From Rhipicephalus microplus (Eukaryota; Arthropoda; Arachnida; Ixodida; Ixodidae), in the NCBI RefSeq assembly GCF_043290135.1, contig NC_134702.1, forward strand, positions 188,822,491 through 188,886,490: a DNA stretch of 64,000 nt, read 5' to 3'. How positions within the stretch are numbered: position 1 is the first letter of the stretch; the number at the start of each line of letters is the position of its first letter. A program made the translations under genes and the position numbers. Shown piece after piece: positions 7,237-62,434 of this stretch. The notes under the pieces were generated by a model. It searched no databases. It saw only the letters and a program-made list of their open reading frames with translations, and was not told where the DNA came from.

Positions 7237-7306
7237 TGGAGGTGCCGGGTATTGAACCCGGGACTTCTCACATGCAAAGCGAGCGCTCTACCACTAAGCT
7301 ACACCC
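7237..7306 (-). tRNA. tRNA-Ala (UGC), 5' end rebuilt by LINE-A
   Basis: Nucleotides 3-72 of the tRNA follow the LINE-A poly(A) directly, so positions 1-2 are now A instead of G and cannot pair with C71-C72. C13 is T. T-loop TTCAATA. Anticodon UGC and U70 are kept. Confidence 0.8.
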
Positions 7307-7416
7307 TTTTTTTTCTTTATTTCCGGTAAACTTCACAAACGGGTTACTAAGATATATTACAATTCACTACATACAATACAAAAAAAACTTAAAACTTAAC
7401 TATAACACATCGCATC

Positions 7417-10400
7417 CTAGAATTCCTTCATGGTCAGTAGGGCTTCTACCCTTTCTACCCACAAAGGTACACATTCGTCTGTTCTTACTACCTCAAGAAA
7501 TCTTGAGATGCTTTCCTTAAAATACTCTCTTGCTGGTCTTCTGTCTGGGTCACAATGAAATCCAGCCATTCTAGAGCGCCATATACTGTGCAAGGCAGTC
7601 ATCATGAGAAAATCGAAGGGTAATCCATCCTCGTTCTCTATTGCCAAATACCTGATACCATGAGGGTCTAACGGAAACTCTTTTTTGATTGTCCTTTGTA
7701 ATACGTCCCAAAAATAAACTCCTTCCCAACAGTGCAGGAAAACATGGTCAATAGTTTCCGGTTTCTTACAGATTAGACAGTGAGATCCCCAAGGCATATA
7801 AAACCCACGCTCCTCTAGGAAGGTTCTTACAGGAAGTGTTCCAGTGTGTAATTTGAAAAAGAACGTTTTCGCGCTTGGAGCTGCTGGCATTTTTTTTACT
7901 CGTTTAAGTACGTTCTGACCCTTGCGTGCTGTATATAGCGCTCTGTACAGTGGGACGGGAAGCATCGTGTCACATAAATCTTTGTACAGTTTTTTCTTTC
8001 CAACAGACCACAGGTAGTCAGTTGAAAAGCGAACACACAAAAACCGCACGCTGGCCACTACTTCCTTCATGTATCCTTGCACAGCCCCTGGGGTAACATG
8101 GGTGCTCACAACAAACTCGGGCAACAGTCTACTTAGTCTTGTTTGACACACTGTTAGTAGGAAAGGATCTCTTGTCTCACGAAAAAAGAAAAACCTATTT
8201 ACTAACTGCTTGAAAAACAGATGTCCTAGCCCAAGGCCTCCACACTTCACCCGTCTAAACGAATTCGTGCGACTGCACCTTTCCCAGTTAGACCCCCACA
8301 CAAATATTGCAAACACCCGATGTAATTTTTGCACATTGACCCGGGAACAGTACAGCACTTGCATCACATACCACAGCTTAGACACAAAAAACCAGTTGCA
8401 TGCAGTAGCCCTAGCAAACATGGACAGATAAGTTGCATTCCATCTATTCGCTTTTTCTTTAATTTCTTTCGTTTGCTGTGTCCAATAATCGTCAGTACTT
8501 TTGTATGACTCGAGCGGTACTCCAAGATATTTAACTGGCGTTCTTGTCCATTTAATGGCTGCGAAAAATTCTGGTGTTGAAGGCCAATATCCATGCCAGA
8601 AGCCGAGGCATTTACCCCAGTTTATGTGGCTTCCTGTAACCTCGGCGAAATATTTAGAAACTCTGATTGATTCTTCAATACCGACATAGGTAGTGCTACA
8701 AATCGCAACATCATCAGCGTATGCGAGTAGTTTGACTTCTGAAGATTGTACTCTAAACCCATTAATGATGTCATTCTGCAATATCGACTGACATAAAGTT
8801 TCAATATAGATGCAAAACAAAAGTGGACTAACAGGGCAACCTTGACGCACTGAGCGCTCGATTCTTATGGGGGGGCCCAATGTCTTGTTGATAATTAGTC
8901 TCGTACTACCGTTCCGATATGCCATGGCTACTCCGTCAATAATTATCTTACCAACATTAATGTGCTTCAATACTGCAAACAAAAGAGCGTGGGAAACGCA
9001 ATCAAACGCTTTCTCCAGATCCAGCTGGAGTATGGCCACACGAGCATGACAGGTGTCAACACATTCGAGCACGAATCGCATTTTATGGACGTTTGTAATT
9101 ATGGACCGACCTTTTATTCCACACGTTTGGTGTGGACCGACGATATCTTTTATTACTGACTGAAGTCTGGCCGCCAAAATTTTCATTAATATTTTGTAGT
9201 CTACGTTTGTCAGTGCGATTGGCCTGTACGCTGTGACGTGCCTGAGCTTTTCAACTTCGTCTGTTTTCGGAATCAGAACGGTACGCGATTCACCAAAGGA
9301 TGGTGGTAATTTCTTTTCCTCATATGCCCCATTAAAAACGCCCGCAAGTATTGAAGACAATTCGCTTTTAAAACATTTGTACCACTTGGCACAAAGACCA
9401 TCTGGTCCTGGAGATTTTCCAGGATTTAACTTATCAATCGCCCGTTCAACTTCAGATGCAGAGATAGATAATTCCAAAGTGTTTTTCACTTCCTCACTCA
9501 ATTGCGGCATGCGTCCTAAATATTCGTCTTTAAATCTTTCTAGGTTTGCCTGTCTACACGCAAAAAGGTTTTCAAAATGACTTGAAAATACGGATAAAGT
9601 GCTGTCCATATCAGTTACTTTGTGACCATCCTTCTCTATTTTTTCGATATGAGTCCGTCGAGCGTTCGTTTTCTCCACCCCTAACGCTCTTTTGGTTGGC
9701 GTCTCTCCAGCCGCTAAAGCCTCAGCCCTAGCACGGACGAGTGCACCGCGGTAGCGTTCCTCGTCATGCAGTGCAAGTTTCTGCTTAATATTGCGTATGT
9801 CAATTTTATACTCTCCCGGTTGTTTGCACTCCAAGTCTATTAGTCTTTCCAAAGTCTTTCGGAGTACTTTTTCTTTCTTTTTCCTTTCATAACTGAATGC
9901 GCAAGAACGATCAATAGCTTTTATTTTTATTCGCTGCTTGAAATCTTCCCATTGTTCTGCAAGTTTAGCTCCATCATCCATTTTTATTTCATTGATGCAG
10001 TTCATAACCTTATCTAAGAAATATTCGTCAGTGATCAAAGTGGAATTCATCTTCCAAAGCTCCCATGAGAAAGTTCCACCTTGTGTTTTCTCTCCCATAT
10101 GACATTTAACTAAACAATAATCGCTAAAGTGTATTGGGTAAACAGCATATGTCTTGCAGTGGGCTATTAATTCAAGCGACACGTAAATGCGATCAAGGCG
10201 CGCATGGCTATTCCCCTGGAAATGTGTGAAACGCACCTCCCGCGTTCCCTCCATACAGCTGCCCACGTCTTCTAACTCGAATTGAGTAACTACGTTTGTT
10301 AGCGTCCTACTACTTTTATCGTAATTGGCGCGTCCATTTGCTCGATCTCGCCCATTGAGGACGCAGTTAAAATCACCAAGTAATACAGATTTCTTTTCCA

Positions 10401-10811
10401 AAGTGAAGTGCTGCTTTAGGCTTGAAAAAAAATTGATCTCTCCTCACAAATGGTTGGTGCATAAATACACACTATACGCCACTGACATACATTGAATACA
10501 AAATCACAGGAAACCAATCTACCAGATGGGCAAGCGAAGGTATCTTGCACTACCAGACCCGGTAACTTCTTAATGAACAAAACGCAGCCTGCAGACGTGC
10601 CTATTGCTTGACTTAAAATTGCGTGGTAACGCGCCGCAAACCTCAGCACCATGCCCCGGGTCTCCTCCTCACCGTCTACTTTTGTTTCTTGTACAGCTAG
10701 AACATCCAGATCCTGATCCACTAGTAGCCTGTAGACTTGGCTCTGTTTCCTCTTGGCGGCGAGACCTCGAACATTTAACGTTGCCACTCTAAGTTTCGGT
10801 GCAACAGCCAT
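7417..10811 (-). CDS. LINE-A ORF2 (endonuclease-RT), frameshifted at a T8 run
   Basis: ORF2 of about 1130 codons in two frames. Part one (10416-10811) starts MAVAPKLRVATLNVRG and covers the first half of the AP-like endonuclease (Asn in TLNVRG, Glu in VQETK). It runs into a stop just after eight T's at about 10425-10432. Homology continues in the -1 frame to 7417, with GDFNC, HARLDRIYVS, RT with AYADD, and a C-terminal Cys/His motif (CLICKKPETIDHVFLHC). The usual SDH of the endonuclease active site reads SDY here, so catalysis is probably lost, whereas LINE-D and LINE-B keep SDH. Protein function: nicking of the tRNA gene and target-primed reverse transcription in the nucleus. Confidence 0.85.
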
Positions 10812-10872
10812 GTCTACACAGTAAAGAAGTTAGCCCGGGGCATGGTGCTTACCTTTGGCGTCTAGCATAGAG

Positions 10873-12093
10873 CTAGACATGTTCGGAGCCTCCAGGTGGA
10901 CCCGTGCCACTGGAGGACAAAGGTGGCCAGTGTTTGTCCGTTATCGGGTTGGGACGCAGCCTTGTGCTGCTGCGTCTGAACGAAGTCGCCTTCGCAGGTG
11001 GCCCCTCTTCTTGCTTTTCGCAGGACGCCTCACGCCGTCCTGCAGACTGCTCGCGGGGTCTTTTGCTTGGCGCCCCACCAGTGATACTCTCGCACGACAC
11101 TGGAAGTTCGGTTAATTCCACCGGCTCAGGCTCCTTCGATGAGGTGCTTGTGAAGCCTTCTTCGGTTTGGCCGGCTGGCTCTTGAGTAACCACCTCCCCA
11201 GATGCTATGTCTGCTTTGGCTGTTGGTTCATCACCACCAGTCGGCGTGACTGTACCTGTTGATGCTTCAGGGTTCACCGCGTCGCCTGCACCTTTCGCCG
11301 CGTCTTCAGCCTCGGTCACGTCCATCACCAACTCTGCTGTGTCGTCACCTTCGGCTGATCCGATAGCCGATGCGTACGTGCGCATGCACGCATCTTCGCT
11401 GTAGCCGAACCGCCGAGAACGCGAGCATCGGGGTACTTTACACTCTCTTCTAACATGGCCGGTACCTTGGCAGCGCAGACACTGCATTAGCCGACCAGGT
11501 GCAACCACAAGTGCCAGTTCACCAGCCACCCTGATTTGATGGGGGAGATCTTCAACCTTCACGCCACTCTTGAGCTTAAGAAGCACAGTCCGTGTGGTTG
11601 AACCCTTGTCGCTGACACCCTGAACACGCCAATGCTCTCTTGTGACTTGTACGACCTTCCCATAAGCCGCCAACGCCGTTCGCACGTCTTCATCGTTGAC
11701 GCCGTACAGCAGCCAATGAAGACGCAGCCGAACCTGCTGATCCTGGGGGTCTACGATGATGCAGCGTCGGCCCTTGACTTTCAGCTCCTTCACATCCAGC
11801 AAGCGTTTCGTAGCGTCCGTGTTGTTCATGGTGACTGCCCAGACATGATTTATCTGGTAGGCCCCCAGTGCCAACACCTCCGGCAGCAGTCCTGTAGGTC
11901 CGAGCGCGTCTCGGAAATCTTCGACTCGATACGGTCTGCCGCGCACATCACCGTGTAAAAACACGGTGTTTTGCGCGACGCGTCCCTTGGGCAGTGCTGG
12001 CAAAATAATCTCATATCCTGCGTCTTGGTCTTCGGTCATCCTGTTACCGCGGCTAGTATGTGCCGCAAACGCCGCTCCTACGGAGCACATCAT
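10873..12093 (-). CDS. LINE-A ORF1 (CCHC nucleic-acid-binding protein)
   Basis: 406 aa from the ATG at 12091-12093, 38 nt from the element 5' end. The frame also stays open upstream through the tRNA fragment and spacer, but that is host sequence. The N-terminal half has a conserved block shared by all five lineages (YEIILPALPKGR, VFLHGD, RPYRVEDFRDAL). Knuckle one is intact (CLRCQGTGHVRREC). Knuckle two has lost a Cys and its His (CSRSRRFGYSEDAC), compared with CSRCRRFGHSEVAC in LINE-D. The tail is acidic and then Arg/Ser-rich. By analogy with other LINE ORF1 proteins it packages the element RNA. Confidence 0.85.
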   Translation of the reverse strand: MMCSVGAAFAAHTSRGNRMTEDQDAGYEIILPALPKGRVAQNTVFLHGDVRGRPYRVEDFRDALGPTGLLPEVLALGAYQINHVWAVTMNNTDATKRLLDVKELKVKGRRCIIVDPQDQQVRLRLHWLLYGVNDEDVRTALAAYGKVVQVTREHWRVQGVSDKGSTTRTVLLKLKSGVKVEDLPHQIRVAGELALVVAPGRLMQCLRCQGTGHVRRECKVPRCSRSRRFGYSEDACMRTYASAIGSAEGDDTAELVMDVTEAEDAAKGAGDAVNPEASTGTVTPTGGDEPTAKADIASGEVVTQEPAGQTEEGFTSTSSKEPEPVELTELPVSCESITGGAPSKRPREQSAGRREASCEKQEEGPPAKATSFRRSSTRLRPNPITDKHWPPLSSSGTGPPGGSEHV

Positions 12094-12131
12094 TCTTGCG
12101 TCCGACGCGTGTGAGTGCCGACGAAAGAATG

Positions 12132-12493: not shown

Positions 12494-12578
12494 TTTTTTT
12501 TGCTTTATTGCCTGTTTACAGGCGCATACATCAAACCACAAGCAGAACAAAAACAAGCAGTAACAGTCCGACAGAAAC

Positions 12579-15500
12579 TTAAAATTCCCTAAGTGCTGCT
12601 AAGGGCTCCACCCTCGACAACCACTCAGGTAAAATCTCCTGAGTTTTCTGCAGTTCAACATACTTGGCCATACATTCACGGAAATACATTCGTGCAGGCC
12701 GTGCATCCTGATCGCGATAGAAACCCGCCATACGGGCCCGCCATAAACAGTGAAGTCCACATAGCATAATCAAATCAAAAGGCATTCCCTCTTCGTCCAC
12801 TATTGGCAGAAATCTTATACCATATGAATTTAAAGGTAATTCTTTCTGTAACGTCCTTTGAAGTACATCCCAAAAATATACTCCTTCCCAACAATGTAAG
12901 AAAACATGGTCAATATTTTCCGGTTTTTTACAGATAAGGCGATTTGTCCCCCAAGGTAATTAAAAACCCCGGTCTGCTTAAAATGTCCTGACTGATAGTG
13001 TACCTGTGTGCAGCTTGAAAAAGAAAGACTTCGCGCCAGGAGGCTTTGCATTCTCTTCACTCTTTTAAGCCCATCTTTCCCTTCACCTCCGGCGTACATG
13101 GCACGGTACAGCGGTTCAGGTAAAACAACATCGCATACATCTTTGTACAACTTCTTTCGAGTCACTGAAAACAAATATTCATTAGAAAATCTAACAGATA
13201 AAAACCGCACACTTAGAATAACCTCTTTAAGATACCCCCGCACAGCACCGGTCATGTCATGAGTGCTAACCACATATCCAGGTAAAGCCCGCGTCACTCT
13301 CATTTGGCACACTGTACGTAAGAAAGGGTCCCTTGTGTAGCGAAAAAAAAGAACCTATTTACGACTTGGCGTATGCAAAGATGTGTTAAACCAATCCCTC
13401 CGTGTCTCACTTTTCGAAACAGATTAGTTCGACTGCATCTCTCCCAGTTCGAAGCCCACACGAACACTGCGAAGATACGATGGAACTTCTGTATGTTTGA
13501 CCTTGAACAATGCAATACTTGCATCACATACCAAAGTTTTGAGGCAAAGAAAAGATTACAGACAGTCGCCCTAGCAAACACTGACAGATGATTACCGTTG
13601 CATCTATTAGCTTTCGTCCGGATTTCTTTCGCTTGTTCTTGCCAGTAGTTCTCATTATCTTTATAAAATTCCAGTGGCAGCCCTAACTACTTGACAGGTG
13701 TGGTCACCCATTTAACATTGGCAAAATAGTCTGGTTTTGATGACCACTCTCCATGCCAGAAACCCAGACACTTTCCCCAGTTTACTAGACTGCCAGTTGC
13801 CTTGCCGAACCTTTTAACCACACTGATGGTAGTGGTAACACTATCTTGATCGATACAACAAACAGCCACATCGTCGGCATATGCCAAAATTTTAACTTCG
13901 AATTCTTGTAATCTATAGCCACGAATGCAACTGTTTTGAGCTATTGCTAAGCACAAAGATTCTATATATAAACTGAAAAGTAGGGGGCTCAGCGGGCAGC
14001 CCTGGCGAACAGAACGCTTTATGTTAATTGTATCTCCTAGCGTCTTATTGATTACCAGTCGGGTTGTGCAGTTCCGGTATGCCATAGATACGCCATCTCC
14101 GATTACAAAACCAACGTTGACATGGTCAAGAATGGCAAACAGAAGGTTGTGGGAAACACAATCAAAAGCTTTCTCGAGATCAATCTGTAGAATGGCTACC
14201 CCTACTTGATTGGCATCGCTACACTCGAGCACACAGCGCATCTTGTGTATATTAGTCACAATGGAGCGTCCCATAATCCCACATGTTTGGTGAGGCCCTA
14301 CTAATTCCTTGATTACCCCTTGAAGTCGCCGTGCTAGTACTTTCATTAAAATTTTGTAATCACAATTAGTTAGTGATATCGGTCTATACGAAGAAACTAA
14401 TTTTAACTTCTCCGAGTGTTCTGTCTTAGGTATCAAAACTGTATGTGCTTCACTAAAGGACCTAGGGAGGACATTAAGGTTATAAGCTTGATTGAAGACA
14501 TCTGCAAGTACTTGGGATAATTCATTTTTGAACTCCTTATAAAACGAAGCACTAAGCCCGTCCGGCCCTGGAGATTTACCAGGATTCATTTTATCTATAG
14601 CCCTTTCTACTTCCGTCGGCGTTATAGATAGCTCTAAAGCTGATTTGGTGTTATCTGACAACTTCGGCATTCTGCTAAGGAACTCCTGCTTAAATTCCTC
14701 TGAATCAATGGGCGTGGCAGCGAAGAGTCCTTCGTAGTGTTTGCTAAACGCTCGTCCTATGCTCTCATTGTCCGAAACTTCGATACCGTTGACTTCAATG
14801 GCATCTATGTGATTTCGTCTGGCATGACTCTTCTCTAATCCAAGCGCTCGCTTCGTCGGGCGATCATCCACAGTCATTTATGCTGCTCTGGCTCGCACTG
14901 GCGCTCCGCGATAGCGTTCCTCCTCATATACCTCTATCCTCTGTTTAATACTCCGCAAATCGTCACCATATACTCCAGGTTTTTCACATTCAAGAGCTGT
15001 TCGTCTCTCAAGTGTTCGTCTAAGCTCTTTCTCATTCTTCTTAGATTCAAAAGATAAAACGCTAGATCTCTCTATTACTTTTATTTTGATTCGCTGCTTG
15101 AATAGCTGCCATTCTTCTCCTATTTTGCCCATACACTCTTTGTTAATATTACTTATTTCTTTAATAACTGATGCGCTAAACGATTCATCCTTCAAGAGGT
15201 TAGAGTTCATTTTCCACTGTTCCCAAGAAAAGGCGTTCCTTTCTTTTTTTGACCCGATATTGCATTTTACAAGACAGTGATCGGAAAAGGAAACAGGGAC
15301 AACAGTATAACTGCTACACTTGGTTATCGCATCTGCAGTAAGGTAAAGTCGATCCAATCGGGCATTACTTGTGCCTTGAAAGTGGGTATACTTCACATTG
15401 CGGGAGCTATGCAAACACTCCTCAACATCTACTAATTCGTGTTCAAAAATCACCTGTGCCAGGACATCACTGCTTCTATCTTTAACGTTGCGCCTGCTTG

Positions 15501-15980
15501 ATCTATCACTTTCATTCAAGACACAGTTGAAATCACCCACCAATAAGAGTTTCCTACCAGTACACACATGTTGTCGTAAATTGGAAAAAAAACCGATCTT
15601 TCCTGGCCAATAGTTGGAGCATAAACACATATAATGCGCCATTCAGTGTCACAATAAACAATATCACACCATACTACTTGGCCTGAAGAGCAAGAAAAGA
15701 CATTTTCTATGACTAATCCTGGCAGTTTTCTAACAAAAAGAACACATCCCCCTGATGTGCCTATGGCCTGGCTCACAGTGGCAAAATACCGTGATGTAAA
15801 CTTAAGCACCATGCTCCCAGTCTCCTCCTCGCCTTCAACTTTCGTCTCCTGCACTGCAAGCACATCCAGATTTTCTTCCAATAACAACCGGTAGACTTGG
15901 CTTTGCTTCTTCTTTGAGGCCAAGCCTCTAACATTCAGCGTGGCGAAGCTAAATGATACTTGAGGCGCCATTACATTCAT
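12579..15980 (-). pseudogene. LINE-B ORF2 (endonuclease-RT), several breaks
   Basis: Starts at the ATG of MNVMAPQVSFSFATLNVRG. Breaks seen: a -1 shift at an eight-T run near 15590, the same place as in LINE-A; in-frame TAA at 14878-14880; in-frame TAG at 13687-13689 where relatives have Tyr in PVKYLG; a shift at another eight-T run near 13345 (Phe-rich FFFF stretch); and further shifts between 13300 and 12800. Endonuclease residues TLNVRG, QETK, GDFNC, HARLDRLY and SDH are all present. RT has AYADD and the QGCPLSPLLF block. The C-terminal end (12579-12800) is recognisable in another frame. Confidence 0.85.
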
Positions 15981-16033
15981 GTGGAGGAGTTAGGCCCGGA
16001 GCATGGCGCTTACCTTGCACGTCTAGCGCTACG

Positions 16034-17326
16034 CTAGACGCCTCCAGGACCGTCCGACCGCCCGGTTTCACTGCACAGTAGAAGAGAATTGTTTACAGCT
16101 TTTTTGTCCGTGGTGCCACCAGCTCTTGCTCTCATGCTGGTGCGTCTGCCAGTCGGCGTCTTTGCCGGTGGTTCTTCCACGCTACTTGCACTGTTCTTGT
16201 CTGCCGTCTTAACAGGGTCTTCCAATGGTCTTTTAATGGCTGAAACGGCACCGCTGGGCCAAGAGACGCGGCTGGCGTTGCACGTGTTTCCTTCTATCTT
16301 CGTGTCGAGACCAACGCTACAGGAGGCACCATCGACAACTTGGCCTTGCTCCGACGCATGGGCAGACGCTCCGTCTACTTCACAGCCTGCGTCTGTCACC
16401 GCATTGTCAGCTGTATCGGTCGATACAGCTGCAGAACCTGGTTGAGTGTCAACAGGTGCCGGTGTAGATTCGTCTACTGATGTTGCAGATGTGCAGTTCA
16501 AATTTTCTGCGACTTGATCTCCGCAACCTTCAGCCGCGTCCTCTGCCTCTGTCACGTCCATAATGTGCTCCGACGCATCTTCGACCTCCGCTGACGCGGT
16601 CACTGCGGCGTACGAACGGACGCATTCCGCGTCTCCATTCCCGAAACGCCGGCAGCGCGAGCACCGAGGCACCTTACACTCGCGACGCACATGTCCTGTT
16701 CCGCTGCAACGCAGGCATTGCATAGGCCGACCTGGGGCTACCACCAAGGCTAATTCACCGGCGACTCGTATCTGATGAGGCAGGTCCTCGACTTTCATAC
16801 CGCTTTTCAGCTTGATGAAAACAGTGCGGGTCGTCGAATTCTTCTCATTGACTCCTTCCACACGCCAGCGTTCCCGGGTCACTTCCGTAACTTTCCCGAA
16901 CGCTGCCAACGCCGTGCGAACATCTTCGTCCGAAACGCCGTGTAACAGCCAGTGAAGCCGAAGCCTCACCTTCTGCTCCTGAGGGTCGATAACGAGGCAG
17001 CGGCGTCCTTTGACCTGGAGTTCTTTCAGATCAGTCATCCGCTTCGTCGCCTCCTGGCTGTTAAAGGTGACGGCCCACACATGGTTGATCTTGTAGGCGC
17101 CCAATGCAATAACGTCGGGAAGCAGTCGTTCCTTCTCCAGAGCGTCTCGGAAATCTTCGACCTTGAAAGGCCTCACTCGAATATCACCGTGCAAAAACAC
17201 TGTGTTCACAACAATACGTCCTGTTGGCAGATTCGGCAAGATGATCTCATAATCCTTGTCACTTTCGTCTGTAATCCTGTTTCCGCGGCCACCAAGGACC
17301 GCCTTTGCCGCTTCGCGGGAGCCCAT
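16034..17326 (-). CDS. LINE-B ORF1 (CCHC protein)
   Basis: 430 aa from the ATG at 17324-17326 (MGSREAAKAV), about 42 nt from the element 5' end. It shares the YEIILP / VFLHGD / RPFKVEDFRDAL block and the WLLHGVSDEDVR segment with LINE-A. Knuckle one is CLRCSGTGHVRREC; knuckle two is CSRCRRFGNGDAEC, with Asn where His is expected. A long Ala/Asp/Ser/Thr-rich linker and an Arg-containing tail follow. The frame is intact throughout. The ORF2 start lies 53 nt downstream. Confidence 0.85.
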   Translation of the reverse strand: MGSREAAKAVLGGRGNRITDESDKDYEIILPNLPTGRIVVNTVFLHGDIRVRPFKVEDFRDALEKERLLPDVIALGAYKINHVWAVTFNSQEATKRMTDLKELQVKGRRCLVIDPQEQKVRLRLHWLLHGVSDEDVRTALAAFGKVTEVTRERWRVEGVNEKNSTTRTVFIKLKSGMKVEDLPHQIRVAGELALVVAPGRPMQCLRCSGTGHVRRECKVPRCSRCRRFGNGDAECVRSYAAVTASAEVEDASEHIMDVTEAEDAAEGCGDQVAENLNCTSATSVDESTPAPVDTQPGSAAVSTDTADNAVTDAGCEVDGASAHASEQGQVVDGASCSVGLDTKIEGNTCNASRVSWPSGAVSAIKRPLEDPVKTADKNSASSVEEPPAKTPTGRRTSMRARAGGTTDKKAVNNSLLLCSETGRSDGPGGV

Positions 17327-17368
17327 GATTCCTGCGTCCGACGCGTGCGAGTGCCGGCGAAAGAATGG

Positions 17369-17386
17369 CCACTGAGCTACACTTCC
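17369..17386 (-). other. 5' tRNA-Ala fragment left by LINE-B (nt 1-18)
   Basis: GGAAGTGTAGCTCAGTGG, a diverged tRNA-Ala 5' end (nt 3-4 are A), fused to the LINE-B 5' end. Confidence 0.88.
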
Positions 17387-17660
17387 GTTACCTTTGCAGC
17401 ACTTATTAACGAGTTTCTTAGTGCTCATCAGCTTGTTCAAACAATAAATTCATCAATTAGTTGAAATAAACAAAATCTTCTCGTCATTGCTGTCTGACAC
17501 AGTTTTTTCATCATTGAGGAAAGCCGCATATTTCTATAGTCAAAGAAAATGGCAGCGCTGTTCGATGAATTGTATTTCATGATATGCACACCGGTAACTC
17601 GTGGTGCCGTAGTATTACAACAGGCAATAAAAAAAGATACCGCTATAGTCGAGAGCGAAT

Positions 17661-17732
17661 TGGAGGTGCCGGTGTTTGAACCCGGGACTTCTCACATGCA
17701 AAGCGAGCGCTCTACCACTGAGCTACACCTCC
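17661..17732 (-). tRNA. tRNA-Ala-like (UGC), G3 lost
   Basis: A61 type. Position 3 is A (plus strand reads acacctcc), so the alanine identity pair G3:U70 becomes A3:U70. Probably not charged with alanine. Confidence 0.8.
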
Positions 17733-17981: not shown

Positions 17982-18006
17982 GATACCGCTAAAGTCGAGA
18001 GCGAAT

Positions 18007-44867: not shown

Positions 44868-44869
44868 AG

Positions 44870-50728: not shown

Positions 50729-51946
50729 CTAGACATCTTCGGAGCCTCCAGGTGGACCCGTGCCACTGGAGGACAAAGGTAGCCAGTGCTTGTCCGATGT
50801 CGGGTTGGGACGCAGCCTCGTGCTGCTGCGTCTGAACGAAGTCGCCTTCGCAGGCGGCCCCTCTTCTTGCTTTTCGCTGGACGCCTCACGCCGTCCTGCA
50901 GACTGCTCGCGGGGTCTTTTGCTTGGCGCCCCACCACTGATACTCTCGCACGACACTGGAAGTTCGGTTAAATCCACCGGCTCAGGCTCCTTCGATGAGG
51001 TGCTTGTGATGCCTTCTTCGGTTTGGCCGGCTGGCTCTTGAGTAACCACCTCCCCAGATGCTATGTCTGCTTTGGCTGTTGGTTCATCACCACCAGTCGG
51101 TGTAACTGTACCTGTTGAAGCTTCAGGGTTCACCGCGTCGCCTGCGCCTTTCGCCGCGTCTTCAGCCTTGGTCACGTCCATCACCAACTCTGCTGTGTCG
51201 TCACCTTCGGCTGATCCGATAGCCGATGCGTACGTGCGCATGCACGCAACTTCGCTGTGGCCGAACCGCCGACAACGCGAGCATCGGGGTACTTTGCACT
51301 CTCTTCTAACATGACCGGTACCTTGGCAGCGCAGACACTGCATTGGCCGACCAGGTGCAACCACAAGTGCCAGTTCACCAGCCACCCTGATTTGATGGGG
51401 GAGATCTTCAACCTTCACGCCACTCTTGAGCTTAAGAAGCACAGTCAGTGTGGTTGAACCCTTGTCGCTGACACCTTGAACACGCCAATGCTCCCTTGTG
51501 ATTTGTACGACCTTCCCAAAAGCCGCCAACGCCATTCGTACGTCTTCATCGTTGACGCCGTACAGCAGCCAATGAAGGCGCAGCCGCACCTGCTGATCCT
51601 GGGGGTCTACGATGATGCAGCGTCGGCCCTTGACTTTCAACTCCTTCACATCCAGCGAGCACTTCGTAGCGTCCGCGTTGTTTATGGTGACTGCCCAGAC
51701 ATGATTATTCTGGTAGGCCCCCAGTGCCAACACCTCCGGCAGCAGTCCTGTAGGTCCGAGCGCGTCTCGGAAATCTTCGACTCAATATGGTCTGCCGCGC
51801 ACATCACCGTGTAAAAACACGGTGTTTTGCGCGACGCGTCCCTTGGGCAGTGGTGGCAAAATAATCTCATATCCTGCGTCTTGGTCTTCGGTCATCCTGT
51901 TACCGCGGCTAGTATGTGCCGCAAACGCCGCTCCTACGGAGCACAT
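50729..51946 (-). pseudogene. LINE-D ORF1 (CCHC protein), one in-frame stop
   Basis: Homologue of LINE-A ORF1, start ATG 51944-51946. An in-frame TGA at 51782-51784 sits where LINE-A has Arg in RPYRVED, a CpG transition. After it the frame is open for 334 codons with both knuckles intact (CLRCQGTGHVRREC, CSRCRRFGHSEVAC), unlike LINE-A, and the same Arg/Ser-rich tail. Confidence 0.85.
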
Positions 51947-51987
51947 GATTCCTGCGTCCGACGCGCGTGAGTGCCGACGAAAGAATG

Positions 51988-52004
51988 ACCACTGAGCTAC
52001 ACCC
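51988..52004 (-). other. 17-bp tRNA-Ala fragment between LINE-E and LINE-D
   Basis: GGGTGTAGCTCAGTGGT, tRNA nt 3-19. It is both the 3' target remnant of LINE-E and the 5' remnant of LINE-D. No spacer and no complete tRNA separate the two elements. Confidence 0.93.
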
Positions 52005-52414
52005 TTCTTTTGTATTTATCAAAGTACTTGGGCAATAAAGACTATATCAAGCGAACAAAAGTACAATCAAATCGCCAAAGTAAGCGCTCAAGCGTTACTC
52101 ATAAACACTAAATGGCTAACACAGCGTGAGTTCCTCACATGAAGAGTTCTTCACATCGTGTTATACAAACAAAAAAGGGGTGAGGTCAAACAGTTCTCTA
52201 AGACGGAGTACCAGTCCGGTCTAAAGTCTAGCTCGTCGTAGATGTTTTTAGGTGGATAGCCATTTGAATGAAGTGTGCGCTTGAAGAGGTGGTGGGCTCT
52301 GCATTTCGGTCTTGCATTCGTGTCTTCCACAAGCTGTGCAAACCTATGAGGAAAAACATATCATATGGTACTTCATCAAGTGTTGCTGGCAGAAGATAAC
52401 GTATTGTGTGAGAA

Positions 52415-55400
52415 TTAATGACGAAACGTTTTTTTCAGTGCTCGCAGAAGAACATCCCAAAATAGTATGGCATTTTTGCAGCTAACAAAGCAATGTTCAA
52501 TCGTTTCCGGCACATCACATAGACGGCAGTTAACAAACGGAATGAAAATACCTTTTCTTTCTAACCATGTGCTTACCGCCAATGTTTCAGAGTGGAGTTT
52601 ATAGAAGAATGTTTTTGAATTCGGTGGAATGTACATTTTGCGCACTCGCTTCAACACATCGTGACCTGGAAGATTGGCGTACAGTGAACGGTACAATGGA
52701 GGTGGGAAGAGTGTACTCAGTAGATCCTTATAAAGCACCTTGCATGTTACTGAGTACAGGTATTCTACAGAGAAGCGAGCTTTAAGAAACTGATCTGCGA
52801 GGTAAACTTCCTGCATGAATCCCCACAAGCATGGGCGTTCGGAGAAGTTGGATGAAACAATTAAATCTGGTAAGCAATCAACAAGTGTAACCTGCAAGAA
52901 GGAACGGATTACAGGATAGGAATTGTCTCGAAAAAAGAAGAATCGGGACACTATTTGCCATAGATAAAGGTGTTTTAGTCCTAACCCACCCTCCCTAACT
53001 GGCTTCAATATATTATCACGACGCATGGGCTCAAAAGTCGAAGAGCATATGAAAGTAGCGAAAATCCGATGAAAGCGTTGTATATAGAATCTTGCGCAAT
53101 CAATAGGTTGTAATACGTAGTAAAGTTTTGTCGCTAAGAAAGTATTGCAAGCTTCAGCTCTCCCAAATATCGAAAGTCGATAGGGCACAAATGTCTGGGC
53201 CTGTCGTTCAAGCTTAGGGACACGTTCCTTCCAGTAATGCGCACTGAATCTATATGCATGCAATGGTACACCGAGGTATGTTGGAGGAGTTCTTGTCCAA
53301 TTAAATCCTGCAAAGTGGTTCGGTGTGCTACCCCACAAGCCAAACCACAGTCCTAAACTTTTAGAGGCGTTTAAACGAGCTCCTGATACTACGCCAAACT
53401 TTTCAGTAGTACATACCACATTTTCGACACTTGGTTTATCTGTGCAAGAGAATGCGACATCATCTGCATAAGCCAATACTTTAACCTCACTGCCTAATAT
53501 TCTAAAGCCACGAATGCAACTCGACTGTATTATGCTTAAGCACAGTGGTTCTAAATAAAGTGCAAATAAAAGAGGTGACATCGGGCATCCCTGTTTTACA
53601 GAAGACCGAATAGAAACTGGCTTGGAGAGTTGACCATTAACTATCAGACGAGTTGAGCATTCATTATAGCATAATTTAACGCCTTTAAGAACAACTTTGC
53701 CAACATTAGCTTGTTCGAGAAGAGAAAAAAGGAAGGAATGACGAACACGATCAAAAGCTTTTGCAAGGTCTACCTGTAGCATTACAAGATGTTTTTGAGA
53801 ACCATGACAGTATTGCAGCACTGTTCGAGCGACATGTATACTGATTTGTATAGATCGACCTCTGATCCCACATGTCTGATGAAACCCAATGAGGATCGAC
53901 ATAGCGAATTGCAACCCATTTGCTAATACTTTTGCGAAAATTTTGTAGTCCACATTTGACAGCGATATTGGCCTGTAGCCCTCAACGAAGCGAAGTTTTT
54001 CCTTGTCAGTTGTTTTCGGTATTAACACAGTGTGACTTTTGCAAAAAGATTGCGGGAGTGTATCCATGTCGTAACTCATCTGAAAAATATTCAGCAATAT
54101 AAGAGCAAGCGTTTTCTTGAAAGCTTTGTAAAATTCACCGGAGATGCCATCAGGCCCCGGTGTTTTCAATAAAGGCAAGTTGTCGATTGCTTGCTCGATT
54201 TCCTGTAGAGTAATGGGCCTATTAATGACTTCACAATCACTGTCCTTCAAGGGGTTCACAAGAGAAACAAAACTAGCCTTGAGGTGAGCGTCAGGATCGT
54301 CAGAGGGAGAGCTAAATAAGCTGTTATAGTACGTTTCGAACGCCAAAGTAATGTCTCCGTTATCTTTTATGAGCACATCGTTAAAGTACAAGTCTAGAAT
54401 AACTTTAGAAATCGCGTGGCGTTGCTCATCAAGTAAAGGTTGGCGCGTCGGTTGCTCAGAATTTAAAGTGCGCTGGTTCCGAGATCTAATACGTGCCCCT
54501 TGGAAGCGAGCAGCATCATATCTCTGTAGTTGGCACTTAATATTCTCAATATCTTTGATGTACTTTCCCGGCATTTCGCATTCCATCTCATTAAGATTGC
54601 AAAGACTTTTAAAAAGTATCTTTTCATCATTCTTTCTATGGAAAGACTTAACAGCCCCAATTTCTAAAGCTATAGCACGAATTTCTTGTTTAAAAAGCTC
54701 CCAAGCAGCGAAGATATGAAAACCAATCGAAAAAGATTGCTTCAATGCCATCTGGACGCAATTCATGAATTCCTGATCACAGAGGAGCTTCGCATTCATT
54801 TTCCAAAGGGCCCACTGGGGACGGAATCGTTTGTGACGATTTTCACCAATTTGCGCTATGACAATACAATGGTCTGAGAATGATACAGCTTCGGTGCTGC
54901 AGGAAATTTTACGAGATAGGAGTGATGAGGACACGTAAATCCGGTCAAGGGGAGCATGAGAGCTGCATTGTACTCTTGTATATGCTGTTGCCCGATTCGA
55001 GACCCCAATGTCAATTAGTCCTGCATTATCTAAAATACCGGATAAAAGCTCACCACTCCTGTCTCTCTTTCCAGACGAATTATAACGATCAATCGCTTCA
55101 CATACGCAGTTGAAATCTCCCATAAGTACCGTGCATCTGTCGACGTCAATTAAATTACGCACTTTTTCAAATAACTCAAGTCGTTTCGGAACATCATTAA
55201 ACGCATATAGATTGATAATTCTCCATGGCACTCCTTGCAACAAAAAACCACAGCATATATACCTGCCCTCTTCATCAACACTAGTGCACAATGCTGAACA
55301 GGGTAGGCTTTTTCTCAAAAACAACCAACAGCCCGCAGATAAACCTTTAGCATGTGAGACACACACATTAAACTGAGACAGAAAAGGCCGCAGGACCTTC

Positions 55401-55555
55401 TCGGCCTCTTCCTCGCTCTCGATCTTTGTCTCTTCGATGGCGACAAAGTCGAGACGCTTCCGATTGAGAAGTCTACGGAGTTGTGCTTGTTTCTGCGAAG
55501 ACCTAAGGCCGCGTACGTTCAAGGTGGCAAATATGAGTCGCTCAGACTGCGCCAT
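52415..55555 (-). CDS. LINE-E ORF2 (endonuclease-RT), most complete copy
   Basis: 1046 aa from MAQSERLIFATLNVRG. The endonuclease has TLNVRG, EETK, NLYA, MGDFNC, HAPLDRIYVS and SDH. RT has YRPISLSNVDYKIFAKVL, HQTCGIRGRSI, LQVDLAKAFDRV, KQGCPMSPLLF and AYADDVAF. The C-terminal Cys/His motif CRLCDVPETIEHCFVSC is present. The frame stops at 52415, right after a run of seven A's near 52430. Homology to the other ORF2 tails (for example LIGLHSLWKTRM) continues in another frame with one base fewer, and then in a third frame to about 52180. The last 80 or so residues are therefore out of frame in this sequence. Confidence 0.9.
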   Translation of the reverse strand: MAQSERLIFATLNVRGLRSSQKQAQLRRLLNRKRLDFVAIEETKIESEEEAEKVLRPFLSQFNVCVSHAKGLSAGCWLFLRKSLPCSALCTSVDEEGRYICCGFLLQGVPWRIINLYAFNDVPKRLELFEKVRNLIDVDRCTVLMGDFNCVCEAIDRYNSSGKRDRSGELLSGILDNAGLIDIGVSNRATAYTRVQCSSHAPLDRIYVSSSLLSRKISCSTEAVSFSDHCIVIAQIGENRHKRFRPQWALWKMNAKLLCDQEFMNCVQMALKQSFSIGFHIFAAWELFKQEIRAIALEIGAVKSFHRKNDEKILFKSLCNLNEMECEMPGKYIKDIENIKCQLQRYDAARFQGARIRSRNQRTLNSEQPTRQPLLDEQRHAISKVILDLYFNDVLIKDNGDITLAFETYYNSLFSSPSDDPDAHLKASFVSLVNPLKDSDCEVINRPITLQEIEQAIDNLPLLKTPGPDGISGEFYKAFKKTLALILLNIFQMSYDMDTLPQSFCKSHTVLIPKTTDKEKLRFVEGYRPISLSNVDYKIFAKVLANGLQFAMSILIGFHQTCGIRGRSIQISIHVARTVLQYCHGSQKHLVMLQVDLAKAFDRVRHSFLFSLLEQANVGKVVLKGVKLCYNECSTRLIVNGQLSKPVSIRSSVKQGCPMSPLLFALYLEPLCLSIIQSSCIRGFRILGSEVKVLAYADDVAFSCTDKPSVENVVCTTEKFGVVSGARLNASKSLGLWFGLWGSTPNHFAGFNWTRTPPTYLGVPLHAYRFSAHYWKERVPKLERQAQTFVPYRLSIFGRAEACNTFLATKLYYVLQPIDCARFYIQRFHRIFATFICSSTFEPMRRDNILKPVREGGLGLKHLYLWQIVSRFFFFRDNSYPVIRSFLQVTLVDCLPDLIVSSNFSERPCLWGFMQEVYLADQFLKARFSVEYLYSVTCKVLYKDLLSTLFPPPLYRSLYANLPGHDVLKRVRKMYIPPNSKTFFYKLHSETLAVSTWLERKGIFIPFVNCRLCDVPETIEHCFVSCKNAILFWDVLLRALKKTFRH

Positions 55556-55576
55556 GGTGACTACCTTCTAATTCGC

Positions 55577-56924
55577 TTATCGTCCCACTTGATCAGTCCC
55601 AAGAGTTGGCGCTGAGGCTTCCCGTGAGCCCCCAGCAGGCCTCCTAGATCGGGATCGGCGACACTTCCCCTTTGGCATGGACTTTCGGCCACGGCGTGAC
55701 TCCCTAGTCACTGACGCTGGGTCACTCTCTTTGCTTGAATCCGAGCTGGACGATGCGTGACGTTTCAGTATTGTTGTATTCGTGGAGATCTGCATACCAT
55801 CTTCCGACACTGCACCATTATGAAAAAGCTGCTGCGGAGCTGCAGCGCAAGCAGGTGATGAACTTTCTGCGGCATCCAGCCCAGAGTCTATCTTGTACTG
55901 CTGGTTCTTCGGCATCTTTATGGGTCAGCGCAACAGCACTCTCCATAGGAACTCCTACTTGTGCTAGGGGTGGTGCGGAGTCGTTTTGTGTATGCTGCTT
56001 GCATGATTCACTTGGCTCTTTGCACGCAGAAGTTTCAACTGTGTCAACAGCGAGTGTCTTTCTTTCCTCTTCTGGATTCCTTGTGGTAGAGCTTGCAGCA
56101 TATGACATTGACGGAGTGTCTCCCGTTGCATCCAAAACCTCGGTGGCATCCATAATATGCTCTAGTAGGTTATCATCTGGCTGTTTTGTGTGCTGTCGCA
56201 GCATGTTGGCGTATGTCATAACACAATCTTTGGCCGAATGACCGAAGCGTCGACAGATGTCACAGCGAGGGGTCCTGCAGTTTCGACGGATGTGTCCAAC
56301 CTTACTGCACCGAAGGCAAAGTGGTGGGCGGCCAGGTATCAGGACGAGGCTTTGCACTCCGAAGATAACAAGAATATGAGGAATATCCGCAATGCGAACT
56401 CCATCAGCAAGGGACAAAACAACATCCCTATTTAGCGTCCGCATTTGTTCCATGTCCGCTACTTTCCAGCTTTCTTGTGATATTGTCTTGACCTTCCCAA
56501 AAGCTTGCAGTCCCTCGCACACATAGGCGTCCTCCAAGCGCTCAGGAAGCCACATAAGCTTCAACTTCACTTCCGTGGGCTCCGAGTCTATAACGAGGCA
56601 TCGACGACTTTTGACGAAAAATTCGCCTCTTCTGACCAACTTTGTTTTCGTCAGCGTTGACTTGCATGTGGCCATCCAAACATGAGACATTTGAAATTGA
56701 CCTATGGAGCTTATTTCCTTCAAGTCAATGATGTACCGAAGAGCATCTCTAAAATCTTGAAACCGGTAGGGGCGACCAGCTAAGTCCGCATGTAGAAAGA
56801 CAGAGTCCACAACAAGCTTACCGGTGGGAAGGCGAGGAAGTACAACACGGTAGTCGTTGCCGCTGGCTGAAGCCTGAGCAGCACCTCTGCCCATGGCCGA
56901 TAAATCCTTCGAAGCGGAGAACAT
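55577..56924 (-). CDS. LINE-E ORF1 (CCHC protein), C-terminal frameshift
   Basis: Main frame 55818-56924, 368 aa from ATG 56922-56924 (MFSASKDLSAMGRG), 40 nt from the element 5' end. Shared block YRVVLPRLPTGK, VFLHADLAGRPY, FQDFRDALR. Knuckles CLRCSKVGHIRRNC and CDICRRFGHSAKDC are intact. Around 55900 homology passes to another frame (QQYKIDSGLDAAES) that ends at 55577 in a Ser/Arg-rich basic tail. The function is probably kept only if the shift is a sequence error. Confidence 0.83.
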
Positions 56925-56964
56925 GAAAAACGCGTCCGTTCAGAACGTCGTCTTCGTCTTTCTC

Positions 56965-57320: not shown

Positions 57321-57436
57321 TATTTTTATTGCCTGTTTTCGGCTCACGTAAACAATACTCATATTAACAGATAATAACACAACACAATCCAAAACGTTGT
57401 AAAAACCGTGGCTCAAATGATGTGGCCACGCATCTG

Positions 57437-60400
57437 TTAAAATGTTTTTATCGTCGATAGTAATTCGACGCGCGGCAACCCCTCTGGGGTGAATTCCTGC
57501 AACTTTTGTTCATCCACAAAATTTCTTATATACTCTTTGAAGTACTGGGTGGGCGCTCGTGCATCTACATCAAAGTGCATGGCTGCCATCCTGGATTTCC
57601 AAATGCTATGAAGAGCCATAAGCATTATCATATCATATGGGGTACTGTCGTCACTTTGTATTTGCAAATAGCGGATGCCATGTGCATCAACGGGGAAATC
57701 TTTTTTGATCGTGCGCTGGAGCACGTCCCAAAGAAAGCATCCCAGCAGTCAATGAATACATGCTCAATTGTCTCCTCCTTTCTGCATATTATGCAATGCG
57801 TGCCACAAGGGACGTAAAACCCCTTTGCAGCCATGCAGGTTTTGACGGTCAGCGTACCGGTATGTAATTTAAAAAAGAAATTCTAAGCACCTGGCGATAT
57901 TTTCATCGCCTTGACGCTCTTTAGTACAGTGTGGCCATGGCATACATTTTAATGGGACCGATACAAAGGGACTGGTAAAAACACATCACATAGGTCCTTG
58001 TACAACTTTCTTCGTCGGACTTGACTCAAGTATTCAAGTGAAAACCGCACTGACAGAAACCTACAAGAAAGTACAACTTCGCGGAGAAAGCCATAAACAC
58101 CACCAGGTACGCTGCAGGTTGATACAACCATGTTAGGCAAGTGTTGCCTTCGGCGAAGTCGACAGACAGTGCGAAGGAATGGGTTGTCGACGTCTATAAA
58201 GAAACAAAATCGATTGACTACCTGTCTTAAAAACAAATGCGACAAGCCCCATCCTCCATTTCGCACTCGAAGGAATAAATTGGTCCGACTCGATCTTTCC
58301 CAAGACGATTCCCACACAAAGACAGCGAACACACGGTGAAATTTTTGGATGTTTACCCTTGAACAATTTAAGACTTGTAAGATATACCAAATTTTACTCA
58401 CTAAAAATATGTTGCAAATTGTGGCTTTAGAAAACAGACCAATTCCAGCCATTCCACTTGTTCACTCTTTCCCGCAGGTTACTCACTTGGCTCCTCCAGT
58501 ACGAATCGCTGTCTTTGTAGCATTCGAGGGGGGCACCCAAGTATTTCACCGGTGTCGTAACAAACCTTATGCTGGCAAAACTGTCTGGGGTTTCTGCCAA
58601 GTCACCGTGCCAAAAGCCAAGGCATTTTACCCAGTTTACAGCGCTGCCACTTGCAGCACAGAAGTTAGTAACGCATTTGACAGCATCTGTTATGCTGTCA
58701 GAGTCCGCGCAAAAAATGGCAATATCGTCCGCATAAGCCAACAGCCGGACTTCAACCTCGTGCAGCTTAAACCCACGGACGCAGTCATTCTCTATGACAC
58801 TCAAACAAAAGGACTCTATGTACAAACAAAACAATAGTGGTGAGAGAGGACAACCCTGACGGACCGAACGCTTGACTGGGATGCGCTTCCCCACCACCTT
58901 GTTAACGATTAGCCGCGTTGAGAAGTCTCGGTACGCCATGAAAACCCCCTATTTGATTATTTTCTCTAAATTCACATAATCTAGGGTGCACAGCAGAATT
59001 TCATGAGGCACCCTGTCAAAAGCCTTCTAGAGGTCGATTTGCAGCATTGCGACTCGCGCACCAATAGCGTCGCAACATTCGAGGAATGCTCCGGGCTGCG
59101 TGTATATTCGTGAGGATAGTTCGACCTTTAATGCCGCACGTCTGATGCGGCCCCACGAGCTCCGTAATGACTGTTTGCAACCTTTTAGCTAGGATTTTCA
59201 TGAATATCTTGTAATCTCCATTAGTGAGGCAGATTGGGCGGTAAGAATTTACTCTGCGCAGTGCAACGGGGTCTTCCGATTTTGGTATAAGAACGGTGTG
59301 AGATGATGAAAAGGACGGGGGTAATATTTTCAGCTCGAATGCCTCATTAAAAACGTCGGCTAAGACTGGTGTCATTTCTAACTTGAAACACTTATAAAAG
59401 GTGGAAGTCAGACCATCAGGGCCAGGCGATTTCCCCGGATGCATACTTTCAATAGCACTGGTAACTTTTTCTTCCGAAATGGGTTCATCCAATATTTCTT
59501 TTGTATCATTGTCAAGCTTTGGCATCAGCGGTAAAAAATATTTTTTAAAGCGATCGACATCAACTGAGCTGGCGGGGAATAAACCATTGAAGTGCTCGAA
59601 GAAAGCACGCTCGATAACATCAGCGACATCGCTGACTTCACCCTCGTGTTCAATTTCTGTTATCTGATTACGTCGCGCATGCCACTTTTCTGAGCCCAAC
59701 GCCCTTTTTGACGGTGCTTCTGTCATTATCAGTCGCTCGGCTCTTGCCCGAACGATAGCACCGCGGTATCTTTCGACATCGAACCGCTCAATTTTACTTT
59801 TCAACGCGCGAACATCTTCAAGAAACATGCCGGGCATTCTACATTCTTCGAGGAGCAATTTTTCCAGGTTTCTGCGCATCAGCTTTTCTTCTCCTTTTTC
59901 TCTGCTTATAGCGCTCGAGCGTTCCAAAGCCTTCAATTTAACGACCTGCTTGAGTACTCCCAGTTTTCTCTAAACGTCTTTTTACTGCGAACTTTCATTT
60001 TTTTAACTTCCGTCATTACTTCCTTCATAAATTTTTCATCACTCAGCAGATTGGAATTCAATTTCCATAGTTGCCACTCGAAGGCCTTTTCGTTTCTTTC
60101 GTGCTAGCTACTACAAAGCTAACCAAGCAGTGGTCACTAAATGAAACGGCGTTAACACGGTATGTTTGCAAAGCGATACCAATTCAACACTCACGTACGC
60201 CCTACCTAGTCGGGCGTGGCTGGCTGCCTGAAAGTGGGTGTACTGCATAGTCCGGCCACCACCGAGACATTTAGCCACATCCTCCAAACCATGTTCTCTT
60301 ACTGTATCGCTTAAGACCGCCGTACTTGCATCCCTGTAATGTCGTTCGCTAGTTTTGTCTTTGGCTGAAAGGGCGCAGTTGAAATCGCCAATATTGATTA

Positions 60401-60827
60401 GGAGCCTATTACATTTGGTATACTGCTTTAGTTGTTCGAAAAATATGCGTCTTTCGTCAGTGACAGTCGGTGCGTACAAGCATTTTACGCGTCGTTCCAA
60501 TCCCGAAAACAAAAGATCACAAACAATGAGCCGACCAGGCGGACATGACGTTGAGGCTTCTACTTTAGCACCCAGACTCTGTCTGCCGAACAAAATGCAA
60601 CCGGAAGTAGTCCCAATGGCATGGCTAACTATAGCAGAATACCGCGGCAAGAATTGGCGCACCATGCCCCCAGTTTCATCGTCCCCATGGACTTTAGTCT
60701 CTTGGACTTCCAGTATGTCAAGTTCAAGATCACTTACTAGCCGATAAAGCTGGCATTGTTTTCTCCGTGAGGCCAGGCCACGCACATTTAAAGTGGCCAC
60801 ACGCATTGAATTTTCTATTTGCACCAT
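57437..60827 (-). pseudogene. LINE-F ORF2 (endonuclease-RT), multiply broken
   Basis: Endonuclease part 60111-60827 (TLNVRG, VQETK, LYAP, GDFNC); the usual HARLDR reads HARLGR, and the frame is lost before SDH. RT pieces lie in different frames at 59016-59936 (YRPICLTNGDYKIFMKIL, HQTCGIKGRTI), 58427-58939 (QGCPLSPLLF, AYADDIAIF), 57949-58452, 57628-57834 (Cys/His motif) and 57437-57724 (C-terminus). No long frame spans the domain boundary, so it is inactive. Confidence 0.87.
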
Positions 60828-60910
60828 TGTAAGGCTACGAAAAACCCAGTGGCATGGCGCTTACCTTACAACTGCAATTCTTTCCTGAACGCCTTGTCCC
60901 AGTACAGTCT

Positions 60911-62103
60911 TTAAGTTGGCGAAGGCAGCGTTTCCGCCGTCTTGCGCTCCGACGAAATGTTTGGCCATGGCCGGATGAGAGGCCGCCGAGCGGGAGTCGT
61001 TTTGGCGGGTGGTTCGTCCGGCGAGGCAGCAGTGGTGCCCTTGTCTTTTTTCCCTTCGTCACGGGGACGCTTCCCCGTCACAATGCCACTGTCGCTTTCA
61101 ATCCCAGTCATCGGTTCAGCCTCGGAGGGGGTCTCGTCTGCTAAGCCAAGAAACGTGTCACCGGTGCTGCTTGCATCCACCTTTTCACTGCTTTCTCCTA
61201 CGCCTTCGTATGGAAGCCCGGCGTCGGGCTTACCTGGTGCTTCACACACGCCCTCTTCTTGACGGCATGACGACCCATCTTCCACAGCAGAGTTTGGGTT
61301 AACTCCTGCTGTTTCTTCCGAGTCTGCTTCGTCCATGAGGTGCCCCAGTGCATCACTTTCCTGCGCTGGTCCGGTCACACTGGCATATGTCTTCGCGCAG
61401 TCGTCGTCTTCGTGGCCGAAGCGGCGACAACGACTGCAGCGGGGTACTCGGCAGTCGCGACGTATGTGTCCGGTACTCTTGCACCGTAGGCACAACGGTG
61501 CACGGCCCGGAACGACAACGAGAGTCAGCTCTCCGGCAATCTTGAGCTGGTTCGGAATGTCATCCACCTTGACGTCGGAGTGCAGCTTTAGCCCCACAGA
61601 CCGCGTCGTTGAGCCCTTTTCAGTGATGCCCGGTGCTCGCCACTTCTCCCTTTTCACTTCGAATGCTTTCCCATAGGGAGTCAAGGCAACACGCACGTCT
61701 TCGTCGGTCACGCCGTGCAGCAACCAGTGAAGCTTCAAGCGAACCTCGCGGTTATTTGGGTCAATGAGCAAACGTGGGCGATCCTTTACCTTCACATCGA
61801 TGGCGGAGAGCAACTTCCGAGCAGCCTCAGCACTCGTCAGTGTCACAGCCCATACGTGGTTCATTTGATACGCCCCCAACGCCAAAACGTCGTCGAGCGC
61901 ACCAAGCTTGGCCAAAGTGTCCCGGTAATCTTCGACGCGGTAAGGCCGGGCTCTCGGATCACCATGCATGAAAACGGTATTCGCAGCGATACGTCCGGAA
62001 GGCAGATGGGGCAGAATCACCTGATAATCGTCGGCGCTAGGCGCAAAAACCCTGTTACCGCGGCCCGGTAGGGCGGCTGATAACGCCCCTCGGAGCCGAA
62101 CAT
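60911..62103 (-). pseudogene. LINE-F ORF1 (CCHC protein), early frameshift
   Basis: The likely start ATG 62101-62103 (MFGSEG) leaves the frame at a run of four G's (plus-strand CCCC, 62086-62089). From 62020 to 60911 the frame is open: LPHLPSGRIAANTVFMHGD, RPYRVEDYRDTL, WLLHGVTDEDVR, both knuckles intact (CLRCKSTGHIRRDC, CSRCRRFGHEDDDC), then an acidic linker and a basic tail. Confidence 0.83.
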
Positions 62104-62434
62104 TCCGCGACCTTATCGCTCGAAAGCCGGAAGTGGAATGACCACTGAGCTACACCCCCATTACATCTGGGGCACACATTAACAAGTTTCTTGGTGCACA
62201 TCAGCTTGTTCAAACAACAAAATAATCAATTAGTTGAAATAAGCAAAATCGTCTCGTCAGTGCTGTCTGATACAGTTTTTTTCATCATTGAGGAAAGCCG
62301 CATGTTTCTATAGCCAAAGAAAATGGCAGCGCTGTTCGATGAAATGTATTTCTTGATATGCGCACCGGTAACTCGTGGTGCCGTAGTATTACAACTGGCA
62401 ATAAAAAAAGATACCGCTAAAGTCGAGAGCGATT

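Follow-up and report, generated by a model that had tools for sequence, protein, structure and literature searches.

Five related LINE families inserted at the 5' ends of RNA polymerase III-type genes in the tick Rhipicephalus microplus

Mutsu is a long interspersed nuclear element (LINE) that targets the 5S rRNA genes. Another LINE, Keno, targets U2 small nuclear RNA (PMC4640811), and tRNA genes serve as targets for elements of several kinds. The dictyostelid elements TRE5, TRE3, NLTR-A and NLTR-B belong to the L1 group of non-long terminal repeat (non-LTR) elements and are found at fixed offsets from tRNA genes; TRE5, which is also found at 5S genes, lies at about -40 to -54 and TRE3 at +40 to +150, both outside the gene, and NLTR-A lies 2-6 bp upstream of the tRNA (PMC5911963, PMC5006619). 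Ty3 integrates at the RNA polymerase III (Pol III) start of tRNA genes (PMC5911963). NeSL-1_TV is found in tRNA-Pro, LIN15_SM in tRNA-Arg and LIN25_SM in tRNA-Glu (PMC4640811), and the DNA transposons Dada-tA, Dada-tV and other Dada elements show fixed insertion inside tRNA genes, tRNA-Ala included (PMC3706591, PMC8869645). The targeting of Pol III genes has been explained as a way of adapting to compact genomes (PMC5006619). Here we describe a window of 64,000 nucleotides (C3:188822491-188886490) from the 3.26-Gb assembly of the tick Rhipicephalus microplus, in which an array of tRNA-Ala genes has been interrupted by LINEs of five families. That the address of these families is the 5' end and A box of a Pol III-type gene seems to us close to certain. 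The fuller reading, in which five related families of the L1 group with an APE endonuclease integrate at the 5' ends of Pol III-type genes and the address is provided by Pol III factors, is considered probable. A literature search that covered few subscription journals found no animal APE-type LINE targeting Pol III genes of any isotype, and no paper on tick LINEs and tRNA targets.

LINE insertions in the tRNA-Ala array

The array is built of 346-bp repeat units with one tRNA-Ala(UGC) gene each. ARAGORN matches 62 tRNA-Ala genes in the window, every one of them on the minus strand (61 TGC, 1 AGC), and BLAST with a single unit showed that the array is interrupted by seven gaps with eight insertions inside. 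The main unbroken part of this target, 49 units on the minus strand, lies at 17369..34329 (ARAGORN, BLAST). One gap contains a Gypsy-type LTR element placed in a spacer (752..5987, minus strand), and the other six contain seven LINEs, A to G, with E and F in the same gap. All the LINEs lie on the minus strand. LINE A (7307..12131) is near full length and has two open reading frames, ORF1 and ORF2, the latter with reverse transcriptase (RT), zf-RVT and a remnant of APE; its single frame change is in the endonuclease region. LINEs B (12494..17368) and C (34330..39050) are also near full length, with frame changes in B and one in C. LINE D (39410..41601) is a 5'-truncated member of the C family (98.4%), and LINE E (41950..51987) is a member of the A family (96-98%) split by a nested Gypsy-type LTR element (about 44724..49933, plus strand). 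LINE F (52005..56964) is near full length with a premature stop near the end of ORF2. LINE G (57321..62140), near full length with frame changes, was assigned by tblastn with the F proteins. The seven thus make five families, A/E, B, C/D, F and G. At the nucleotide level A and E are 96-98% and C and D 98% identical, and other pairs give partial alignments at 65-78%; the RT identities between families are 43-66%.

All seven LINEs are sense to the tRNA, and their junctions span tRNA nucleotides (nt) -3 to 19. The 5' flank ends at tRNA-Ala nt 19 in A, E and G, nt 18 in B, nt 15 in F, nt 10 in C and nt 4 in D, and the 3' flank starts at nt 3 in A, E and F, nt 4 in B, about nt 6 in G and nt -3 in both C and D. 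Target duplications measure 13-17 nt in six of the LINEs and 7 nt in D. In C the repeated target piece takes in just the start of the A box TAGCTCAGTGG; in A, B, E, F and G it covers this box wholly or for the most part. In the same five LINEs the downstream copy of the tRNA is short of its first two to five bases, and in C and D the downstream tRNA is intact. A 17-nt piece of tRNA-Ala containing the A box lies between F and E (51988..52004, minus strand); since E inserted in the tRNA downstream of F, the two share this one piece.

These seven junctions bear out the proposal of an earlier note on this DNA that five co-resident LINE families have inserted at one tRNA position in the sense orientation. 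The note had placed the site within the first 19 nt or at nt -1; the shared site and the orientation stand, and the true span is wider, from nt -3 to 19, with a different offset in C/D. As it had also stated, no LINE was found in the spacers of the window. The chance that seven of seven insertions fall within 22 of 346 positions in a single orientation is (0.032)^7, about 3e-11 by our own arithmetic.

Flanks of the five families across the genome

The assembly was searched with the last 400 bases of each family, represented by A, C, G, F and B, and each search listed 40 near-complete matches from 225-1035 candidates. For copies outside the window, 151-base stretches across the 3' junction were read, 38 for A and 20 each for C, G, F and B. 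These 118 flanks are those of the best-scoring copies; two were masked and 116 were scored. The joint score combined the best A box lying at most 30 bases from the junction with a B box found 30-75 bases further on; it has 18 scored positions and was given a threshold of 15. The scoring window and motifs were set after the first 38 A flanks, and the C, G, F and B flanks and the control were scored with them unchanged. It was found that an A box and a B box at tRNA spacing follow right after the A-tail, at a score of at least 15 of 18, in 98 of the 116 flanks (A 31/38, B 17/20, C 17/20, F 16/19, G 17/19). The same score is reached by 0.25% of shuffled A flanks and by 0.075% of windows from LINE and Gypsy bodies. 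As a control, copies of the LTR end of the spacer Gypsy element were located and fetched likewise, and none of 20 reached 15, the best score being 14, in two of them. An identical copy of this LTR end is present just upstream of the window (C3:188816617-188817016). In 4 of the 20 control copies (L190, L192, L196, L199) the LTR end stands beside (AT)n, and this Gypsy element may prefer such repeats.

Eighteen flanks remain under the threshold. They include two 7SL flanks, ten that are tRNA-like by eye, one doubtful flank and four that are not tRNA-like; flank L109 also scores under 15, yet ARAGORN calls a tRNA-Met in it. Since 7SL, tRNA-Met and tRNA-like cases are found under the threshold, the joint score is a conservative one.

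The spacing is narrow. Between the end of the A-tail and the A box the median distance is 5 in A, 8 in C and 7 in G, the families measured, with a range of 2-16 and mostly 4-10, the end of the A-tail being ambiguous wherever the target starts with A or G. In most of the copies read, the 3' junction, where the first strand would start, is upstream of the A box and near mature tRNA nt -4 to +4. The fetched stretch extends to the 5' end of the element in 15 of 20 copies for A, 7 of 10 for G and 6 of 10 for C. In most such A and G copies the same target piece could be seen by eye on both sides, for example pieces of tRNA-Pro, tRNA-Met and tRNA-Trp; only an imperfect or short repeat was seen in L054 (family A), in L128 and L136 (family G) and in most C copies. 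In many copies with an intact 5' end the repeated piece extends into or past the A box. The junction pattern is broadly as expected from target-primed insertion with a staggered cut.

Such a distribution could in principle also arise if the elements inserted at random and survived only in multicopy tRNA genes, or if a few insertions were spread by duplication, the latter being an alternative that the earlier note itself had named. Some copies do share near-identical flanks (L038/L039; L048/L079/L080; L117/L118), so that the 98 scoring flanks are not all independent, and the F copies cluster along one stretch of C2. However, there are 46 distinct target sequences among the 98, with narrow spacing, one orientation and separate 5' junctions, and the LTR element of the same genome gave 0 of 20. 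Survival, moreover, should need no tRNA genes in a genome of 3.26 Gb. Random insertion or duplication is therefore regarded as highly improbable.

To identify the targets, the 116 flanks were run through ARAGORN, which recognises a tRNA in 34 (A 11, C 4, G 10, F 3, B 6). Fifteen isotypes are represented, namely Ala, Val, Thr, Pro, Ser, Trp, Met, Asn, Phe, Lys, His, Gly, Arg, Glu and Leu, and one call in a B flank has no assigned isotype. Rfam, applied to the A, B, C and F flanks only, found a tRNA in 24 of the 24 flanks called there by ARAGORN. The first ~125 bases of 7SL (Metazoa_SRP), from model position 1, follow one A copy (L069) and one B copy (L168), which lie about 9 kb apart at about 104.41 Mb on C3, each at the exact 5' end of the 7SL sequence. 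Their matches have 56 and 57 bits against a gathering score of 70, because the fetched stretch ends inside 7SL, and their box score is just 12. Most of the remaining flanks resemble tRNAs and have both boxes, and T runs often come after them. The commonest target, in 17 of the 98 scoring flanks, is a tRNA-like family, TGGCGCAGTGGTTAGCGTCTTCGAATGG...GTTCGATCC, followed by a T run and ACGGGACGGG, in which ARAGORN makes no call (L035, L040, L043, L094, L148 and L165 are examples).

The offset is thus fixed across many gene types and independent of isotype, as seen in 98 of 116 flanks, 15 isotypes and two 7SL flanks, and the isotypes, the box-bearing flanks and 7SL together indicate that the target is the 5' end and A box of Pol III-type genes generally. 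The earlier note had proposed a guild of elements specific for tRNA-Ala. The seven window copies agree with it, but the window is a tRNA-Ala array, so that they were bound to be in tRNA-Ala; a second array likewise has a B copy and a G copy in tRNA-Ala. Most copies elsewhere are in other tRNA genes or tRNA-like sequences, and with these flanks specificity for tRNA-Ala is refuted and has become hardly conceivable. The note had named many copies with unrelated flanks elsewhere in the genome as what would refute its guild, and this has come about in part. Copies are indeed many elsewhere, but as most of the flanks read are tRNA, tRNA-like or 7SL, the target is wider and not absent.

The second tRNA-Ala array, at C3:169.48-169.68 Mb (L009-L028), has ~520 units making up 180 of 200 kb, and contains few insertions. 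The B and G copies mentioned above are at the same site as in the window, the spacers carry three short interspersed nuclear elements (SINEs) and one 5.1-kb element, and a further 4.8-kb element lies at tRNA nt ~33.

The elements and the reading of their address

Pfam finds the APE endonuclease, RT (RVT_1) and zf-RVT all in F and C, the zf-RVT of C being under the cut-off. Partial sets are found in the others: RT and zf-RVT in A and E, APE in B and weakly in A, and a part of the set in the truncated D. The reading frame is broken by a stop in F and by frame changes in the other six LINEs (tblastn). ORF1 is conserved at 39-54% between F and the other families (tblastn), and a Pfam zinc knuckle appears in the ORF1 of F only, under the cut-off. 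The best solved-structure match of the F ORF2 is human LINE-1 ORF2 (E 5e-71). An ORF2 with APE, RT and zf-RVT (by Pfam; in G by tblastn only), an A-tail, target-site duplication and 5' truncation of some copies are what is expected of L1-group LINEs, and judged by their sequences the families are L1-group LINEs with a predicted APE endonuclease. A restriction-like endonuclease of the NeSL/R2 type was not found by Pfam, the sole search made, which gave APE in B, C and F and weakly in A.

Among the 120 relatives listed for the F ORF2 three have organism names, all ticks (Ornithodoros turicata, and Ixodes scapularis twice). Those with organism names among the 120 listed for the A ORF1 are likewise all ticks, the best of them being from Rhipicephalus microplus (85% over 63% of the query). 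RT trees place the five families together with 73 further rows and two tick-named rows, the only ones there with organism names, on the same side of a branch with full support; A and B are close, G is nearby, and C and F stand apart. No relatives of the F ORF2 were found in viral contigs, and the array unit gave just one match in phage records, a tRNA-Pro. For the 120 listed ORF1 relatives, N-terminal extensions in frame were read for target sequence and nothing was recovered.

Within the endonuclease region, A (about 10425-10435) and E (50281-50288) shift frame on or close to a run of eight T, and B also shifts frame near its T run; these changes may be inherited, tolerated or due to a slippery site. 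A, B, E and G share a terminal hairpin at the 5' end (12131, 17368, 51987 and 62140 respectively), with a leader of only about 40 nt ahead of the likely ORF1 start. A self-cleaving ribozyme was considered there, and Rfam, run on the 5' ends of A and G, finds none.

Target-primed reverse transcription with the first nick near the tRNA 5' end is supported by where the copies lie, by their A-tail and repeated target pieces, and by the APE endonuclease. In the proposed mechanism the endonuclease would nick the bottom strand at this place, and reverse transcription would be primed from that nick. The tRNA-Ala array is a dense target. With less certainty, the address could be read through Pol III factors on the A and B boxes (TFIIIC/TFIIIB), in the manner of TRE5-A and Ty3, and the exact base would then be set by the endonuclease. 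Pol III factors are favoured by the lack of any dependence on isotype, by the two hits on 7SL and by how seldom the SINE head is hit, and we consider targeting guided by factors somewhat likelier than targeting guided purely by DNA.

The endonuclease, with other domains of ORF2 or ORF1, might instead read the A box TRGYNNARNGG directly and nick a few bases upstream of it without Pol III factors. The A box is usually part of the repeated target piece, so that direct reading of the DNA accounts for the site equally well. One A target that is not a tRNA (L036) shows a piece resembling an A box but lacks a good B box, and the site-specific APE LINEs TRAS1 and Tx1L have been reported to cut by sequence. 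On the other side, two families hit 7SL at its exact 5' end despite the weak box match, and the tRNA-derived SINE head that is present in array spacers has both boxes yet was the flank in only 1 of 116 cases (L170, family B); by pattern it was found in 0 of the 77 A, C and G flanks, the F and B flanks being checked by eye. Direct recognition is accordingly possible, though the less probable of the two.

Several further points weigh against the preferred reading of Pol III-type genes addressed through their factors. The flanks L036, L078 and L083 of family A and L180 of family B resemble no Pol III gene, and L110 of family G is doubtful. Most of the targets draw no ARAGORN call; they resemble tRNAs and are putative Pol III genes. 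The 1 of 116 for the SINE head is a raw count over the flanks read.

A wider proposal is that the Pol III initiation complex serves as the integration address for a whole clade of tick LINEs, with insertion at the A box of Pol III genes of every kind, 7SL included; in our judgement it is evenly balanced. If it were true, the clade would be a separately evolved animal counterpart of TRE5 and Ty3, and its co-resident families would differ just by a few bases of offset.

Comparison with known systems

The tick LINEs offer an animal system for the study of targeted insertion at tRNA genes, and their families form a natural series on how an APE endonuclease sets its offset. The results also suggest that tRNA gene counts in ticks may include interrupted genes.

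Keno and Mutsu resemble the tick LINEs in being of the APE type and in having a fixed site within a gene for a small RNA, but each of them is restricted to one gene family. NeSL-1_TV, LIN15_SM and LIN25_SM are also non-LTR elements in tRNA genes; they have been reported for one isotype each and are related to NeSL, with a restriction-like endonuclease, whereas the tick LINEs are of the APE type and independent of isotype. The Dada elements differ in being DDE DNA transposons with 6-7-bp duplications, and Dada-tV inserts at the anticodon. Ty3 differs in being an LTR retrotransposon of yeast.

The closest in behaviour are the TRE and NLTR elements of Dictyostelium, which share with the tick LINEs an APE-type non-LTR nature and a fixed offset to tRNA genes. 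TRE/NLTR hosts are amoebae with compact genomes, whereas the tick has an animal genome of 3.26 Gb with several related families, and the co-residence of several Pol III-targeting LINE families in a genome of this size puts the compact-genome idea to the test. The tick site, at about tRNA nt -4 to +4, is not at the distances of TRE5 and TRE3. TRE5 and TRE3 are outside the gene and TRE5 is opposite to the tRNA, whereas the tick LINEs are in the sense orientation and begin or end at the 5' end of the tRNA, where the A-box region is mostly repeated.

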